DNA of 64,000 bases, from assembly GCA_010356995.1 (NCBI GenBank), contig ML996690.1, positions 1 to 64,000 of the forward strand, in the 5' to 3' direction. The DNA comes from Trichodelitschia bisporula (Eukaryota > Ascomycota > Dothideomycetes > Phaeotrichales > Phaeotrichaceae). The notes beneath the pieces are model-generated. The model was given only the letters and a program-made list of their open reading frames with translations, was not told where the DNA came from and searched no databases. The position numbers and the translations under genes were made by a program. This document shows positions 45,960 to 61,247 of the stretch, piece after piece; the stretch's first letter is position 1, and each line of letters begins with the position of its first letter.

Positions 45960-48900
45960 CTACTCGGATGGCGTTTCCCAGAATTCAAACCGAGGCTGTA
46001 TTACCGCCATTTCCCATCCACGTGGGAAGAACAGTGAGCCATCCGCCCCAACCCAGGCATACGCCGTGTACTCCACCCATTCCTTCGGCAGGAAGTAGTG
46101 GCGGCGGATTTGCGCCGCTGATACCGCGGGCCCAAAGTCCAGTCGCCATGTGCACAGCGCATGGTCGTTGTCGAAGAATACCAATGCCTCGTTCTGGGCC
46201 GCAATGACCCAGTTAATCTCACGCGAAATGCACCGCGGAATCAGTTTGTACGGGACTCGGCCGGGCTTGATTGCGATATCGGATGGTGCGACCAGCGCCC
46301 AGTCGGTTACGTCGCGGCCCGCGTCCTGTGTGCGTATTGCGAGTAGCAAGCCGTGCGCGGTGGGTTTCGTTCCACCTACTTTTGCTGCATCGCCGAAGGA
46401 GAGAAATGAGCTCCCCAGTGCATGAGACGGGAGCTTATCGAAGAAGGTTTCGCCGATTTTGTGTAGCGTCGTCCAATTCAGCCGGATGATGGCGTCGAGG
46501 ACGACGACGAGGAGATGCCCGGTGTTGGGGTCGGTGAGCATGCCCATACATGTTCTATCCATGTCTTGCATTGCAATACGGGCCCCGTTTGCGCAACTTA
46601 CTACGCTGATACCTTTTCCGGAGGCTGAAGAGTGCGTCATCGCCAGGTGGCTGCCGTCGGGGCTGAACGAGACCCAGCCGAATGCTTGAACGTCCAGACC
46701 CGCCAATGTGCCCGCAAGCGAGACTTCGCATACTAGCCAAACCTGCGGCGAAGGTCGTTTCGTCAAGTCGGAGAGCACTTCGAAAGAGAGAACCGTGATA
46801 GTGTCGCGAGACATCACGATGGCTAGACGCGTGCCTCTGGCGTCCCACTCCAGATGGAGGTGAAGCGGGTTGTGACCGCTCGGCGTCTGCGGCGGGATGT
46901 TCCACACGCACGACACAAAGTCGCCGTCCTTGTCAAACAGCTTGATATCCCCGGCGCGATTCATCGTGCAAAAGTACCTCCCGAATGGTTCAACTGCAAA
47001 CGTCAGGGGCTTCGTGCGCTGGTCCCAAACTTGAACGTCCTGCAGGGCTAGTGTCTTAGCGACATTTTCCGGCTCTTCAGCAGCGATTTGTAATACCGGT
47101 GGCTCCCACACGGTGCACGCGGCACTGGTATGATGATAAAGTCGTCTGCTGTCCGGACTGAACACCGCGCAGGACCAGATCGACATTCGTCCGGACGCCA
47201 TCGTGCACAGCTGAGCGAAAGTCTCAAAATGGAATAGCGTGACCACTCCGCTTTGGTCGCAGACCGCAAACAACCGGCCATTCGGACTGCACTGGATGTT
47301 TAGCTTCTGTGGATGCGAGCCCAGCATGAGTTCGTTATTTGACCCCTCATCCGGGTTCCACTTGAAGACGCAAGCATCTTTGTAGAGGCCAAGGACATGA
47401 TGGCTGCGAGGATTCCAGCAAACAGCGATGGCTTGGTCTTCATCCCGTGGTGACTCGTGAGGTCGCATCGGCTGTACCGGTCCATTCCGTCGATGGCGTC
47501 GGACTTCAGACTTGTTGGGATTGATATAATAGACAGTGACCGGAGCTCCCCTATACCCAACGACAATCCGCTTCTTGTCGGGACTAAAAGCCACGCAACA
47601 CCACCAGTACCGCAATTCGTCCGGTTCCTCGAACGAACGCCTGTGCTCCCACGTGTGCCGCTGTGAGAGCCGTCGGATAGCCTTGTCATCGAACGCGGCA
47701 ATGATTGTTGTCCCGCCCAGGTACGTGACGCTCATGATGCGACCGCGCAGGTCCGGTGGGTGCTCGATGACCATAGGCTCACGTCCTTCGAGCGGTATCT
47801 GCCAGATCCGAGTCGTGTATACCCCGCAGTACACGTAAGTGTCGCCTTTGAGGCTAAAGCACGAGGCGGTGAAGTAGGGATGGGTGCTCAGCTCCCCGGC
47901 CCGCGGCTCCTCTACCGATATATCTTCCACAAAGTTCTGCGCCGTCCATACCGTACTGGTACCCATGACTTGCCGATGGTCAAACACCGACGTGGAGAGA
48001 GCCACGTGCTCATTGCTGCACACCAGCTGCGGCTCGTACTCGGAATAGCTGGCCATGTGCATTTGCGCAACAGAGTGATCCCAGTCCAGGTTTGAAACTC
48101 CCGTAAGCGATATCCGTGCCTTGCGAGAAAACTGCTGATGTAGCTTCGAATTCCGAGGACAAAACGCCGGAATGGTCCACCGAATGGCTGTCGGGGCCCT
48201 CAACAGAATGTAGCCAAAGCGGCCGAACAGTTTCCGCAGATCGACTGACCATGGCCCGTAAATTTCCTGGAACGCTTCATTCGTGCAAATGCCTTTCAGA
48301 GACTCGGCCGCTGATGTCAAGGCATCGAGCTCACGCAAGCGACCTAGCACCTCAATCCACAGAAGTACTCGCTCTGAGGTAAACAGCCCCATCAGCAACA
48401 TGGCTCTGCGCCATGCAATTGTCCGGCTTTGGCTCAGGTGAAAGGGCCACGAAGTTGCCGCGTATCGGAGGAAACTCGGTCCACACTCTTCAAGGATGCT
48501 AGCATCACGCTCCGGAAGGCGCTTCATGCAGCGCACAAAGTGCGCGCCATGTGTCAAATCGAGGTCGACGAAAAAGTGCGGGCGAGGGGCCTTGTTCAAG
48601 ACGATAAAATCCCTGGCCGTCTGATGGAGCATGTTGACCTGATCTTTGTTGTCAATGACGACAAAGTGTCCACAGAGTAGCGGAATGGTAGTTCGCAGGT
48701 CTGAGACCAGGTCATAGTCGTGGTCGAGGGCCTCAGCTAACTGACTAAGCGTCAAGAGGGTCCGCGAGCAGGTTGTCCAGGCCAGGATTTTGTGCGCAAG
48801 CTCCCGACTCTGACGCTGGAGACGCTTAGCCATATTTTGGTCCATGCGGTGGTACAGGGCGTCCAAGTCAGGTGGCAAATCCTTCAGCGCCTCTTCTATA

Positions 48901-50999
48901 TCGGCTTCGGTAAAGCACTCGGGCATTTGCTCGACTACCAGATGGACCCACAGGAAATTACCATTGGCCCTCTCAACGATGTTCTTCTTGACCTTGTGTT
49001 CCAGGCTCTGATTCCAGTTTGGGATCCTGATTCGGCTTATGGTGTAGAGGTGAATGTCCGGATCTGAATGGCGCATTGCAAGCTGCCGAATGAACATGTG
49101 CTCGGGCACAGACAAGTTGAGTTGATGGAATGCGACGTTAAGCTTTTGCGAATGCTGACTTAAGACAAGAATGTGAACGGGGAGGCGAACAGCACCCTTC
49201 AAGCTGCTCAGAAGTTCAAAAACAACCGGCGCTTCATCACACTCATCCAGTCCATCGATGATCCAATATAGCGGCCTTTGAACATCAAGGCTAAGCAGGT
49301 GAGGGACAAAGACATTGCGCCACAGTGTCTTCGCGGCCTTCTCTCCCAGTCGCTCCTCATTCTCGTGCATATCGAGCAGGGCCTTGCGGAACTGCGGGAC
49401 ACTGTGTGCAATCTGGAAAGCCAAGGATCTCAAAAGGGCGCTCGCCGATCGCTTCAGAGGCTCGCTGAAGCGGAAAAAGAAGAATTGGCACGACAGGTTC
49501 AGTTCGCGAACGTGGTTGATGATAAATGATGCTAGGACAGACTTCCCCGAAGCAGGTAAAGCGTGGAGCCACAATACGGCACATCGTACATGGCTCTGCC
49601 GCTGCTCGAGCCACTCCCCAAAGATTGGCTCCTGTAAAATCCACTCGCAGGTGCCCTCCATCCACCGGTCGCGAAAGAAATCATAGTCGTCCTCCGGTGA
49701 GGCGTCGACCGCTAGAAGTGCTTTAAGCCGATGTATCTCGTCACGTCGCCCACTCGCGTCAGCGCCCGACGCTTCGATATGCTTGGGGGGCTTTACTTTA
49801 CCGGCGTCCCGGACGTATGCTCTGATCTGGTTCCGGACTTTCTTGTAATTAGGGTCGTCCCGGCTGGTGAATTTACACACACCGTGGTGGTCGGCATCCA
49901 GCGACATAAACGCCTCACCCGGGTACAGCAAAGTGGCCGAGTCTTGCACAAGAACCATGACCCGCACCGGAAAACCAAGACTGAGGTTCCCCTTGACGAG
50001 CGGCGTTTCAAGTGTCTCCCAGAATGAAAAGAGGCTGAGCTTCGAGATATGGTGGCGAAACTGCTGATTGATTTGCTGCAAGGTGCGCGAGTTGCGGTCC
50101 AGACTCGTCAGGAAGTCTTTCTTCGGAATTAAGATGGAAACAGAAAGCAGCGTATTAAGCGTCCCAGCAAAGTCGGAACCCCTGTGAGGAGTGGCTAGGA
50201 AGATCATTGAGTGGACAGCCTGCACGATCTCGCTGTACTCCGGGTCGTCCTGGCCCCGGAGGAAAGCTGCTTTCGCCACCAATCCGCCCATCGAGTGGGC
50301 GACAAATATGATGGGCGTCTTTCCGATCCCGAGCTCTTCGCCGGTGTCATCATCTTGTGCATTCTTCATCAAGGCGAGCAGATCCTGTGCAAAATCTGGA
50401 ATGTCTAAGATATTCGAATTCGTGGCCTGCCAGTTCGCGTTATATCCATAAGTGATGATTCTAACGGTCTGAAGCCCCGCTTCCGCCGGCAGCCACTTGG
50501 CCGGCCAGAAGAGAGCTCGATCACCATCTTTGCACCAAGTGGAATGGCTAGTGCCGCCGAGTCCATGGATGAAGATGATGTCTGCAGTAGGTTGACCGTC
50601 GGGCGTGTAAAGAACTGTAAGTCCCAGCGGATTGTATTGCGGATCTGAGGAAGGCTCCTTTGAGAGTGAAGCGCTTTCCGCTGGACGGCTGACAAGACTT
50701 GAAGCTCCGACCGGAGATACGCTTCGCTGGCTCGATGGCACGATGGTTGTGAGTCGAGTGTTGCCACTAGATGGTGTCGAACTGGGAGCATGTGGCCTGG
50801 GATCCTCGGTGACTTCTGTTCTGCGACCGGCCTTGGAGAAGAGCTTCCGCTACAACGAATGGTCAGCATCAAGGACAACCACGACTTCTATGTTGCAACG
50901 ATACATTTTCAAAAACTGAGTGCTCTATTTCCCCAGGGCAACTACGAGTACCCAGCCTGAGCGAATAGGTGCTAGGAAAATGCGTCGCATACGTACCAT
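45960..50999 (-). CDS. NLR receptor: SesB-type lipase, NACHT, WD-like propeller
   Basis: Intact fungal NLR of about 1,630 residues. Residues ~80-330 are an alpha/beta-hydrolase of the SesB type: IIFIHGLGGTSHSTWC, nucleophile elbow FVAHSMGGLVAK and MIFLATPHRGSDF. NACHT follows (~430-600): P-loop LHALPASGKSVLASF, Walker B YWIIDGLDECDE; then a helical region with DLDALYHRMDQN and LLTLSQLAEALDHDYD. The last ~650 residues are a degenerate beta-propeller with WD-like blades (FSPDKKRIVVGYRG, FSPDSRRLYHH, FSPDGSHLAMTHS). Most is one exon (50849-45960). A 147-nt intron (50996-50850) directly after an ATG at 50997-50999 is proposed because RKLFSKAGRRTE upstream of the first open codons lacks another start. 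Sensor and trigger unknown. Confidence 0.88.
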
Positions 51000-53994: not shown

Positions 53995-55295
53995 TTTCGG
54001 TTGCACAAACTAGGTTTGGCGTCGGGGTGGACAGAATCAAGGCGGCTCGAAGTCATCAGTGGATTCTAGCGATTATACCCCCGTTTGCATATGAATATCT
54101 GCTAATGATCAACGAAGATGCAATGACTCTCGTACGTGTCGTCCCGCTCCAACGTCATCTCCTAAAACACGAGGTGGAATATGGACCAATATCAAGGGTG
54201 ATTTACCACCGTCGTTTGGCCACGAAAATCCCTGGGCCGCCGAAATTGTTGTAGTGCTTACTGTTAGAAACCGCTGGAGATGGCACGAGCAACCAACGTC
54301 ATTGTCACGGAAGGCTTCGCGATTGTTCCTTCTCGCCGCTGATCGCGCGAGCTGGGACGCCTAAGCAGGATCCGCTCCATGCTATGGAATCATTTTGCCT
54401 TCTGCTTGCTGCCCTGGCACTGGCTAGTCAGTGCGTCGCGCCAGCGAAGCCCTGCCTTGCGTTCAGTGCTAGTTCATTGCCCACTCGTTGCTGGTTCAGT
54501 GCTCCGTGCAGGGCTCCGGCTCTTTTGCAGGGCTTCGTTTTTCGCAAGGGCTCTGATTTCCCCTCTACGCTCATCCATTCAATTGGCGCCGGAACGCCCA
54601 TATTCCCCAGCTGAAGGAGTCCTTCTAGACGACAGCGGCGCGCGTCGCGATCCCCGCAACCCGGCCAGCACGCGTCTCCAGCCCATAATGAGCCATTACG
54701 GGCAATATGTCGTAATGCGCAAGTCGTTGGCGAGACGGGCGACGGACGGGCCCCGCGCCTGCATGCTGCCCCGGACCACACATGCACGCCCGCTATACCC
54801 GCCCCGATGCAGCGCCGCATTTCCCCAGATTCGACGGCCGGGGCAGTCCCTGCATCGCCGGGGCCCCGGCCGGCTCAGCTTCCTCTACCGGCGACGTGAG
54901 ACGGATTTTCTCCGGGGCACTTTATGGTGCCGAGGTTGGCTCACGTGCAAGCGGGCAATGGGAGTGACGGGCTGCTCGTCTACGCATATGATGCGGGCGA
55001 GGGTTGGGCGCCGGAGGAGTGTGTGCGCTGGGGCCAGGTGCTCCGGCCCTGGCCCTCTGGCCGGTCGCGCGTAGATTGCGTGGGCAATTCCGCATGGCAA
55101 GGCTGTTTGCGCGCGGCGGCAGGGCTGCCTCGTGCTATATAAGTGACGCCCGTCGTTTCTTGCCCTCCCACTCGTGCTACATAACAACTGCTGCCTTCCG
55201 TTCTTCTAGCCTTTGCATCTCCGTTTCCAGACTCTGCTCTTCCACGCCCGACTCTACACTCGTTAAGCATACTCCTCCGGTTTAGATCAGTCACA
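53995..55295. other. Intergenic, promoter of the HsbA-like gene
   Basis: No supported gene; overlapping biased frames only. The TATA box listed next is the only clear element. Confidence 0.5.
55136..55143 (+). promoter_or_regulatory. TATA box of the HsbA-like gene
   Basis: TATATAAG, 153 nt upstream of the start codon, followed by a C/T-rich leader. A strong TATA box fits a highly expressed or inducible surface-protein gene. Confidence 0.7.
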
Positions 55296-56102
55296 ATGCG
55301 CTACTCCTTCGCCGCCCTCTTCCTCTCCGGCGCCGCCCTCGTGGCCGCTGAGCCCAGCCTCATGCAGCGCCAGGCGCAACTCGTCGTCGGCGTCGTCAAC
55401 GGCATCGAAAAGGCGACCGGCGACCTCGACTCGGCGGTCAAGTCCTTCAGCGGTGACGCCAGCAGCCTTCTTGCCGCGAGCAAGAAGGTTCTCTCCACGG
55501 TCACCTCCGGCGTGTCCACCGTGCAGGGCAGCAGCAGCATCAGCCTGAACGACGCCCTCGCCATCCAATCCCAGGTCACCAACCTGCAGACCACCGTGAC
55601 CAGCACCGTCAACGACCTGATCGAGAAGAAGTCCGCCCTCATCGCCGCCGGTCAGGGCGCCGCCGTCGAGCAGTCCCTCGTCGACCAGCTCTCGGGCGCC
55701 AAGGCCCTGTCCTCGGCCATTGCCTCCAAGCTCCCGACTGAGCTCCAGAGCCTCGCCGTGCAGCTTAGCTCCGGCATTGCGGACAGCCTGCAGAAGGGCG
55801 TGGATGCGTTTGCGGGTGCGCCCGGTGGTGCGCCGTCCACTGGCGGGTCGGCCAGCTCTGCTGCGCCTGCCTCGCCGTCTGCGTCTGCCTCGCCGTCTGC
55901 GTCTGCGGGCTCTGGCTCGCACTCTGGCAGCGGCTCGCACACTGGTGGTTCCGCGTCATCGGCTGGCACTGGCACCAAGCCCGCTGTTTACACCAGCGCC
56001 GCTGCGAAGCCGCAGGTTTACACGGGTGCGGCCGCTGGCCGTGAGGTCCAGGGCAGCCTGGTTGGTGCGCTTGTCATGGGCGCTGTTGCGTGGGCCTTGT
56101 AA
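55296..56102 (+). CDS. HsbA-like hydrophobic-surface-binding cell-wall protein
   Basis: 268 residues, single exon. Signal peptide MRYSFAALFLSGAALVAAEP; then a ~170-residue helical domain of the HsbA (galactomannoprotein) type with LVVGVVNGIEKATGDLDSAV, SLNDALAIQSQVTNLQTTV and LPTELQSLAVQLSSGIADSL; then a Ser/Ala/Pro-rich glycosylatable linker and a hydrophobic C-terminus (LVGALVMGAVAWAL) after small residues, the pattern of a GPI-anchor signal. Such proteins sit in the wall and bind hydrophobic surfaces. The gene has a strong TATA box. Confidence 0.85.
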   Translation: MRYSFAALFLSGAALVAAEPSLMQRQAQLVVGVVNGIEKATGDLDSAVKSFSGDASSLLAASKKVLSTVTSGVSTVQGSSSISLNDALAIQSQVTNLQTTVTSTVNDLIEKKSALIAAGQGAAVEQSLVDQLSGAKALSSAIASKLPTELQSLAVQLSSGIADSLQKGVDAFAGAPGGAPSTGGSASSAAPASPSASASPSASAGSGSHSGSGSHTGGSASSAGTGTKPAVYTSAAAKPQVYTGAAAGREVQGSLVGALVMGAVAWAL

Positions 56103-59491: not shown

Positions 59492-59737
59492 TCAGCTTGC
59501 ATTACAACCGTTCCCGCCCGCATGCTTTCCCACGTCCTTTTCAGCCTTGCAACCACCACAGATTCGCCGCCCCCAAGGAACTGCAGCGACAAGATCGCGA
59601 CCCTTGACCTCATGCCACCTCAAGCAGCCATCATTGGTGCCCTTCGCCTTTGGATGGGGCCTCTCGCATTCCTTGAGGATGTGAAGGAACGCCCGCTCGT
59701 CGCACTGTGTACAGTGCAGCATCACAGCTTCGCACAT
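59492..59737 (-). CDS. Small Cys-rich protein, MC.AV.LHC family
   Basis: 81 residues in one exon, beginning MCEAVMLHCTQCDERAF with a later CGGC. The N-terminus matches the larger gene at 60137-61247 (MCRAVELHCTSC). Pattern shared: Met-Cys-x-Ala-Val-x-Leu-His-Cys-Thr-x-Cys, then His-x-Leu and further cysteines, which suggests zinc binding. No signal peptide. It may be a complete short gene or a truncated paralogue. Function unknown. Confidence 0.5.
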   Translation of the reverse strand: MCEAVMLHCTQCDERAFLHILKECERPHPKAKGTNDGCLRWHEVKGRDLVAAVPWGRRICGGCKAEKDVGKHAGGNGCNAS

Positions 59738-60136: not shown

Positions 60137-61247
60137 TTAATCGGTCGCGTCGATGGCGAAATCCTGTTCGACGATACCATTAAGGAAACGGTCGATGGCG
60201 CCGAAGCAACGCTCTTCGATCTCCTAGATCCACATCAGCTTCACCAAACGGCATAAACCCAAACCCACTGACCATTTCAACTAATATCTCTCGAGCAAGC
60301 ATGATGTCGTCGAGATCGCAATGCTCAACCTCCTTTATTCACATCAGCTCAATCTAGCGGCACGACCCCGAGTCCACTCACCACTTCAAATGACATCCCC
60401 TCATCCAGCATAATGCCGTCAACGCGGCAATATTCGTCCTCCTGGATCCACATGAGCTCCGTCCAGCGGCATAAACCCGAACCCACTCACCACTTCAATT
60501 AACATCTCTCGATCAAACATGATGTCGTCGACACCACAATGTTCAACCTTCTAAATACACATCAGCTCCATCCAGCAGCATTACCCGAACCCACCCACCG
60601 CTTCCGGGGACGTCCATCCATTGGGCATCATGGAGTCAACACTGCGATATTCGCCCTCCTGATACATATCACCTCCATCGAACGGCATGCAACCAAACCC
60701 CTCCATCACCTCATATGACGCCCCCCGGCTGGCCGCGGCATGGGCGTCAAGAGCATCGAAGACGATATCGGGGATCTGGTTTTGCTGGACAGCCTACTCC
60801 ACATAAGCTCATCCAACCGCAAAAAGTCCTCCCACTCACCCTCTCCGGCGTCCCCAAATCATGCACAGCACACGGCCTGTCCGGCGCCCCAATCCACAGC
60901 CGCGCCCGGCAAGGCCAGTCCAAACGTCCCAGTTCCGCCTCATCCATCATGACAAGCTCACTCTGAGGCGAGATCGAACTATACCCGCTGTCGCGTCGCT
61001 CGAGAACAACGATACCGGGACTTTCAAGAGCAAGTTTGACGACCGCATTAGCTTTCTCGGCTGGAGACGGGAGCTTGACACACCCGCAGTGGCGCGTGGT
61101 GAAGGGGATGGTGTCGAGGAGGGCTATGGTCATGTCGACGCGCATCCGGGACTGCTTGGAACATGCTTCTCCCCATTGACAGCAGTAAAGGAGGTGCTCG
61201 TACTTGCTTGCGCAGGACGTGCAGTGCAACTCCACGGCACGGCACAT
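60137..61247 (-). CDS. Cys-rich protein with tandemly repeated exon-intron units
   Basis: Seven-exon model, 272 residues: 61247-60840, 60793-60710, 60658-60599, 60550-60491, 60441-60382, 60332-60273, 60223-60137. Every intron is phase 0 (46, 51, 48, 49, 49, 49 nt) and starts GTGAGT/GTGGGT/GTCAGT/GTGATG; most have CTGAT ~10 nt before the AG. Exon 1 encodes MCRAVELHCTSCASKYEHLL, more cysteines and a Ser-rich part. Exons 3-6 are each exactly 20 codons and similar: EGEYRSVDSMMP.., KVEHCGVDDIMFDREMLIEV, EDEYCRVDGIMLDEGMSFEV, EVEHCDLDDIMLAREILVEM. The last exon ends FAIDATD. Without splicing, the ~109-nt period would shift the frame at each repeat. Function unknown; acidic repeat region. Confidence 0.72.
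60224..60709 (-). repeat. Tandem array, ~109-nt unit (60-nt exon plus ~49-nt intron)
   Basis: On the + strand the marker CACATCAGCT (or close variants) recurs at 60231, 60340, 60449, 60558 and ~60665: spacings 109, 109, 109 and 107. Five imperfect units, roughly 70-85% alike by eye. The repeat covers both the short exons and the introns of the gene above, so exon-intron units were copied together. Confidence 0.85.

Follow-up and report, generated by a model that had tools for sequence, protein, structure and literature searches.

A fungal gene whose acidic tail probably grew by tandem duplication of an intron-containing segment

In the 64,000-nucleotide (nt) stretch of Trichodelitschia bisporula contig ML996690.1 analyzed here (the window), the minus strand from 61247 to 60137 carries a gene in which 60-nt exons alternate with short introns. 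We think it likely that this is a real, spliced gene and that its acidic tail grew by tandem internal duplication of a segment consisting of an intron and a 60-nt exon. The repeat, a similarity among the introns beyond their splice signals, the coding character of the joined exons and a two-unit pattern are all shown directly by the DNA. The original prediction had reported four 60-nt exons and 48–51-nt introns in a repeat of about 109 nt at 60137..61247; its observation was confirmed, with coordinates and structure correct, and its interpretation is partly supported. It had missed the likeness of intron 1 to the repeated introns, a candidate fifth unit and a two-unit pairing of the exons.

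Joining the exons of that prediction yields an open frame of 272 codons plus a stop, a coding sequence of 819 nt including the stop. The exons measure 408, 84, 60, 60, 60, 60 and 87 nt and the introns 46, 51, 48, 49, 49 and 49 nt; all six introns are GT-AG and, as had been claimed, all six are in phase 0. Tandem Repeats Finder, which is blind to genes and independent of the exon model, reports a period of 109 nt with 3.5 copies at 60221-60604, and its score of 353 is the highest among 21 rows for the window. On the minus strand, exon 1 (60840..61247, 408 nt, 136 residues with 10 cysteines) lies outside the repeat and is followed by intron 1 (60794..60839, 46 nt, GTGAGT...CTTAT...TAG) and exon 2 (60710..60793, 84 nt, 28 residues), which does not align clearly to the 60-nt units. 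Intron 2 (60659..60709, 51 nt) then leads into the first unit exon, U1 (60599..60658, EGEYRSVDSMMPNGWTSPEA). The array continues through intron 3 (60551..60598, 48 nt), U2 (60491..60550, KVEHCGVDDIMFDREMLIEV), intron 4 (60442..60490, 49 nt), U3 (60382..60441, EDEYCRVDGIMLDEGMSFEV), intron 5 (60333..60381, 49 nt), U4 (60273..60332, EVEHCDLDDIMLAREILVEM) and intron 6 (60224..60272, 49 nt), and it closes with the last exon (60137..60223, 87 nt with the stop). U1–U4 show no length change among themselves; length changes are confined to the introns. The first 60 nt of the last exon are 40–47% identical to U1–U4 (z 2.4–3.8) and may represent a fifth, much diverged unit (U5) at the start of this exon.

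Without splicing the array does not yield a single protein, as judged by eye and as the original prediction had argued: on read-through, introns 3 and 5 contain in-frame stops (TAA and TGA, respectively), and each 49-nt intron puts the sequence after it out of frame. With 60-nt exons and phase-0 introns, the coding sequence gains a multiple of three bases from a copied unit only when the introns are removed, a further part of its reasoning that holds. We compared this layout with random arrays built from dinucleotide-shuffled ancestors, in which each of five copies was given its observed divergence and no insertions or deletions were simulated. A shared GT-AG intron of 40–70 nt, an exon length divisible by three and an open frame arose together in 1.45% of 4000 such arrays, and the shared layout plus a CTNA branch site in at least four of five copies in 0.1% of another 4000. 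When the real consensus was instead allowed to diverge neutrally into five copies, again free of insertions and deletions (20000 runs), 0.9% of runs kept GT and AG in every copy, 10.9% kept the exons open and 0.08% did both; this last test is after the fact, as the consensus and the features were drawn from the copies themselves. The placement of insertions and deletions in introns, with none in U1–U4, adds a little. We conclude that the exon-intron layout is more than chance.

The joined exons also score as coding. To train a codon score we took 31 long frames that run from stop to stop in the window (at least 180 codons each, 11317 codons in total, candidate region excluded); they were not individually checked as genes. 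Joined exons 2–7 score 0.152 in the frame of the model, while the remaining frames of the same strand give −0.29 and −0.57; in-frame training pieces have a mean of 0.088 and a 5% point of −0.068. Among 3000 random pieces of the window, 2.6% reach the score of the joined exons.

A protein search returned a single match, the 291-residue hypothetical protein EJ06DRAFT_519723 of Trichodelitschia bisporula (Dothideomycetes, Phaeotrichales), which is 91% identical across the whole query (E up to 1, 836 candidates). We take it to be the same gene under another gene model. It starts with the same 136 residues, it shares our repeated exons, and introns 3, 5 and 6 are removed in the same way, as matched by eye. 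The two models part at the other introns: in the public one the acceptor of intron 1 lies 9 nt further on, intron 2 is retained as 17 coding residues, and intron 4 would be a 34-nt intron ending at another acceptor inside ours, adding five residues. These differences account for the public length (272 − 3 + 17 + 5 = 291). Since all six of the short control introns described below are longer than 34 nt (44–55 nt), our guess is that the public model is an automatic prediction. The shared repeated exons support the predicted splice pattern but do not prove it.

These results bear on the possibility that the repeat is a non-coding minisatellite lying 3′ of a short single-exon gene, a 166-residue open reading frame (ORF) at 61247-60747, and that the exon-intron reading is accidental. 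Exon 1 does continue as an open frame to 60747, and the units lack a clear third-position excess. However, the coding score and frame of the joined exons, the retention of splice sites and an open frame in all copies and the public gene model all speak against a minisatellite, and we regard it as unlikely.

The introns of the array look related to one another. The 15 pairs of introns I1–I6 share 63–82% identity. As controls we hand-picked six short introns elsewhere in the window, four from a DnaJ-like gene and two from a P450 gene, with splice points that rest partly on family motifs; a further intron, in an ANAPC8-like gene, was too long (134 nt) to be included. Among the controls, the 15 pairs average 54% identity with a maximum of 59%, and array introns reach at most 60% against controls. 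The array introns (46–51 nt) fall within the control range of lengths, TAG, CAG and AAG acceptors occur in both, and a CTRAN branch site is found in five of six controls, one P450 intron being without it. Judged on these alignments, all six array introns, including the one ahead of the array, look homologous and alike beyond shared splice signals. We then built a sequence model of the unit from introns 2–6 with U1–U5 and searched the 64 kb. The best place outside the training copies is intron 1 (11.6 bits, E 0.0091, a rough value), and the next reaches 10.3 bits (E 0.024). Intron 1, which stands upstream of the recognizable exon units, is thus in all likelihood the same intron as the other five.

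The original prediction held that splice signals are kept while exon codons vary. This stands for GT and AG, which are kept in all six introns; the branch site is kept only loosely, as the exact CTGAT it named is found in just three (I3, I5 and I6), with CTTAT in I1, CTCAT in I4 and no CTNA in I2. Intron 2 is the sole intron of the six without a CTNA branch. Because it also has an unusual donor (GTGATG), comprises 51 stop-free nucleotides in frame and is coding in the public model, its removal is uncertain, and it is a candidate for intron retention (60659-60709, minus strand).

Similar introns could also stem from a mobile introner-like element whose copies entered a coding region that was already repeated. 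Such elements are known in Dothideomycetes (PMC4457414), and I1 and I6 do resemble the other introns though the exons that adjoin them, exon 2 and U5, hardly resemble the units. However, a DNA query with the whole locus matched one place in the 25.65-Mb genome, in a search that skipped common words and that 49-nt copies could escape, and no other strong copy emerged when the window was searched with the unit model. Introns and exons also share one 109-nt register, and the 218-nt repeat described below covers both. We therefore consider insertion of mobile introns very improbable.

The order in which the units arose is partly legible in the exons. All six informative exon sites pair U1 with U3 and U2 with U4, and a 174-nt stretch recurs 218 nt away at 78% identity, compared to 66% at 109 nt. 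The introns carry no pairing signal, with no informative site among the downstream introns and one, for another grouping, among the upstream introns. The exon sites thus appear to record a duplication of two units at once (218 nt). Together with the shared register of exon and intron, this pattern bears out the earlier claim that exon and intron together form the unit and that whole units were copied. The original prediction also raised possible variation in unit number between strains; pairwise, the exons of U1–U4 differ at 17–47% of bases, and even the latest duplication is therefore not recent. No relative that could show an unduplicated form matched in the protein searches, and a neighboring ORF shares just a short N-terminal pattern.

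A third alternative is intronization, in which the repeat was formerly coding throughout (about 37 codons) and part of it turned intronic, with intron 2 still coding as in the public model. By eye, introns 2, 4 and 6 read in frame give similar stop-free peptides (GFGxMP), and intron 2 with U1 makes 111 nt, in frame and open. Against this, the in-frame codon scores of the introns are mostly non-coding (I1 −0.44, I2 −0.03, I3 −0.51, I4 −0.06, I5 −0.21 and I6 0.00, compared to the training mean of 0.088), with the caveat that I2, I4 and I6 exceed the 5% point of training pieces that are longer than the introns. Additionally, the same kind of intron, with an ordinary donor, is already found outside the array as I1. 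Intronization strikes us as improbable. A separate idea, that the introns were made from a duplicated exonic AGGT segment, would call for likeness between an intron and the exon next to it; 36 comparisons between introns and exons (z −1.3 to 3.2, three of them at least 2.5) gave no clear similarity. We return to the reading in which a pre-existing intron was copied along with its exon.

Several observations weigh against that reading. Across five copies the introns have more invariant columns (24/52) than the exons (16/60; Fisher p 0.047); across four copies the counts are 27/52 (introns 2–5) or 30/52 (introns 3–6) versus 26/60 for the exons. With splice signals removed, intron divergence (0.15–0.38) is lower than synonymous divergence in nine of ten pairs, U2–U4 being the exception, although the pairs are not independent and the numbers are small. 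The introns are therefore at least as conserved as the exons, a result not predicted by plain duplication; for introns this short, constraint may be enough to explain it. The coding evidence has its own weak points: the reverse complement of the joined exons scores 0.108 in one frame, exon 1 scores only 0.006 (still above the 5% point of training pieces), and third codon positions are not clearly enriched among the substitutions between units. The ratio of nonsynonymous to synonymous divergence (dN/dS) is at least 0.5 in seven of ten unit pairs, and the public model disagrees with ours at three of six introns (1, 2 and 4), which is a real uncertainty.

The original prediction had proposed comparing dN/dS between units. 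By the Nei-Gojobori method, omitting the exon 2 segment because it cannot be aligned to the units, dN/dS ranges from 0.19 to 0.99 and lies below 1 in all ten pairs of U1–U5. The unit exons are under weak constraint and show no sign of positive selection; diversifying selection, which we considered, is unsupported.

The tail itself is strongly acidic: residues 137–272 have a computed isoelectric point of 4.05 and a charge near −28. Combined with the cysteines of exon 1, this suggests a protein with a cysteine-rich, possibly metal-binding head and an acidic tail. Neither Pfam nor NCBIfam gave a match above cut-off for the protein, and a structure prediction for the annotated protein (mean predicted local distance difference test score 37.6) was unusable. 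When residues 1–136 and 137–291 of EJ06DRAFT_519723 were searched separately, each matched only itself (E up to 10; 98 and 62 candidates, respectively); these protein searches require shared short words and similar length, so that a distant relative could escape them. A search of the genome for paralogues with the protein gave six matches, all of them exons of this gene. By these searches the gene appears so far to be known from one species. No paper about the locus was among the literature matches listed, which for the Trichodelitschia bisporula genome included PMC7501314. At the RNA level, a consensus fold of the five units has 16 pairs, two of which show changes on both sides.

A search of the ORFs of the window revealed that a small one 0.4 kb downstream (59492-59737, minus strand) has a short N-terminal cysteine pattern in common with the array gene (E 0.013); it starts MCEAVMLHCTQC, and the array gene has the similar MCRAVELHCTSC. 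From this pattern it could be a tandem paralogue of exon 1 that has diverged and lacks the array. Elsewhere in the window, a 1629-residue ORF (45963-50849, minus strand) has an NLR-like layout, with an alpha/beta hydrolase-like N-terminus, NPHP3_N/NACHT, a winged helix and a beta-propeller, and an ORF at 55185-56099 on the plus strand encodes a hydrophobic surface binding protein A domain (HsbA, E 4.1e-24).

Tandem duplication that multiplies an intron along with its exon is a known process and not a new way for genes to grow. Internal duplications of a pre-existing intron are recounted in PMC4974935 for Arabidopsis TOUCH3 and from the work of Knowles and McLysaght (2006) and Gao and Lynch (2009); like the cases told there, the array consists of tandem copies of a segment with a whole intron and exonic sequence on either side. 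It differs from them in being serial: about 0.7 kb holds six related introns and four to five units of 20 residues each, with a two-unit event among the duplications. A fungal parallel is the metallothionein gene AcMT1 of Agaricus crocodilinus, which, as described in PMC12508003, was extended by internal duplication of part of an exon and the downstream intron and has introns of about 50 bp. AcMT1 shows one duplication, inserted within itself, in a known metal-binding family, whereas the array has several head-to-tail copies and its protein matches no known family. Tandem duplication is also tied to intron number in fission yeast, where, by the account in PMC3629103, introns arise from 24-nt exonic repeats; the array, in contrast, shows no clear similarity between introns and exons.

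The introner-like elements of Dothideomycetes are another case of several introns that resemble one another, in the class to which this fungus belongs. Such elements, as PMC4457414 presents them, need many copies in unrelated genes, whereas only one locus surfaced for the array introns in the whole-locus genome query and the window model search. In the SP7-like repeat effectors of Rhizophagus, also fungal proteins, the tandem repeats are hydrophilic and a conserved intron precedes the first of them (PMC11333574). The array has an intron per repeat; for these effectors, none within the repeats is mentioned in the passages of PMC11333574 consulted. New in the present case are the apparent homology of all six introns, including the one ahead of the array, and the two-unit step; the array is also notable for its small unit and for the number of related introns in one gene.

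We propose that the gene began in an exon-intron-exon form in which one short phase-0 intron was already present. An early duplication across intron 1 would have come first, and at least one event, a later one, would have copied two units (218 nt) together; the intron would have multiplied along with the exon, one ancestral intron giving rise to six copies. Given a 60-nt exon and phase-0 introns, splicing would make of each copy 20 added in-frame residues. The order of these events, and the preservation of the frame by selection, we infer from the patterns above. A bolder extension, which we hold to be rather doubtful, is that the introns serve as a shared tract for unequal crossing-over or gene conversion. 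They would then be kept alike and splice-competent while the exons diverge, the tail could gain or lose blocks of 20 or 40 residues without disturbing the frame, and intron 2, with its weak splice signals, would add a retained-intron form.

In the human LPA kringle IV and NBPF/Olduvai arrays, too, the length of the protein depends on how many intron-containing units are present; those units are much larger than the 109 nt seen here, and they vary among people. Trichodelitschia bisporula belongs to the same class as Zymoseptoria tritici. In the latter, according to PMC4457414, intron duplications other than introner-like elements, tandem within-gene ones included, make up less than 1% of single intron gains, and a six-intron example is useful for that reason. 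The array is also a hard case for gene finders, given that the public model and ours differ at half of the introns. It is compact as well: a single mechanism would have raised the numbers of introns and exons and the length of the protein together, and the order of the units can still be read.
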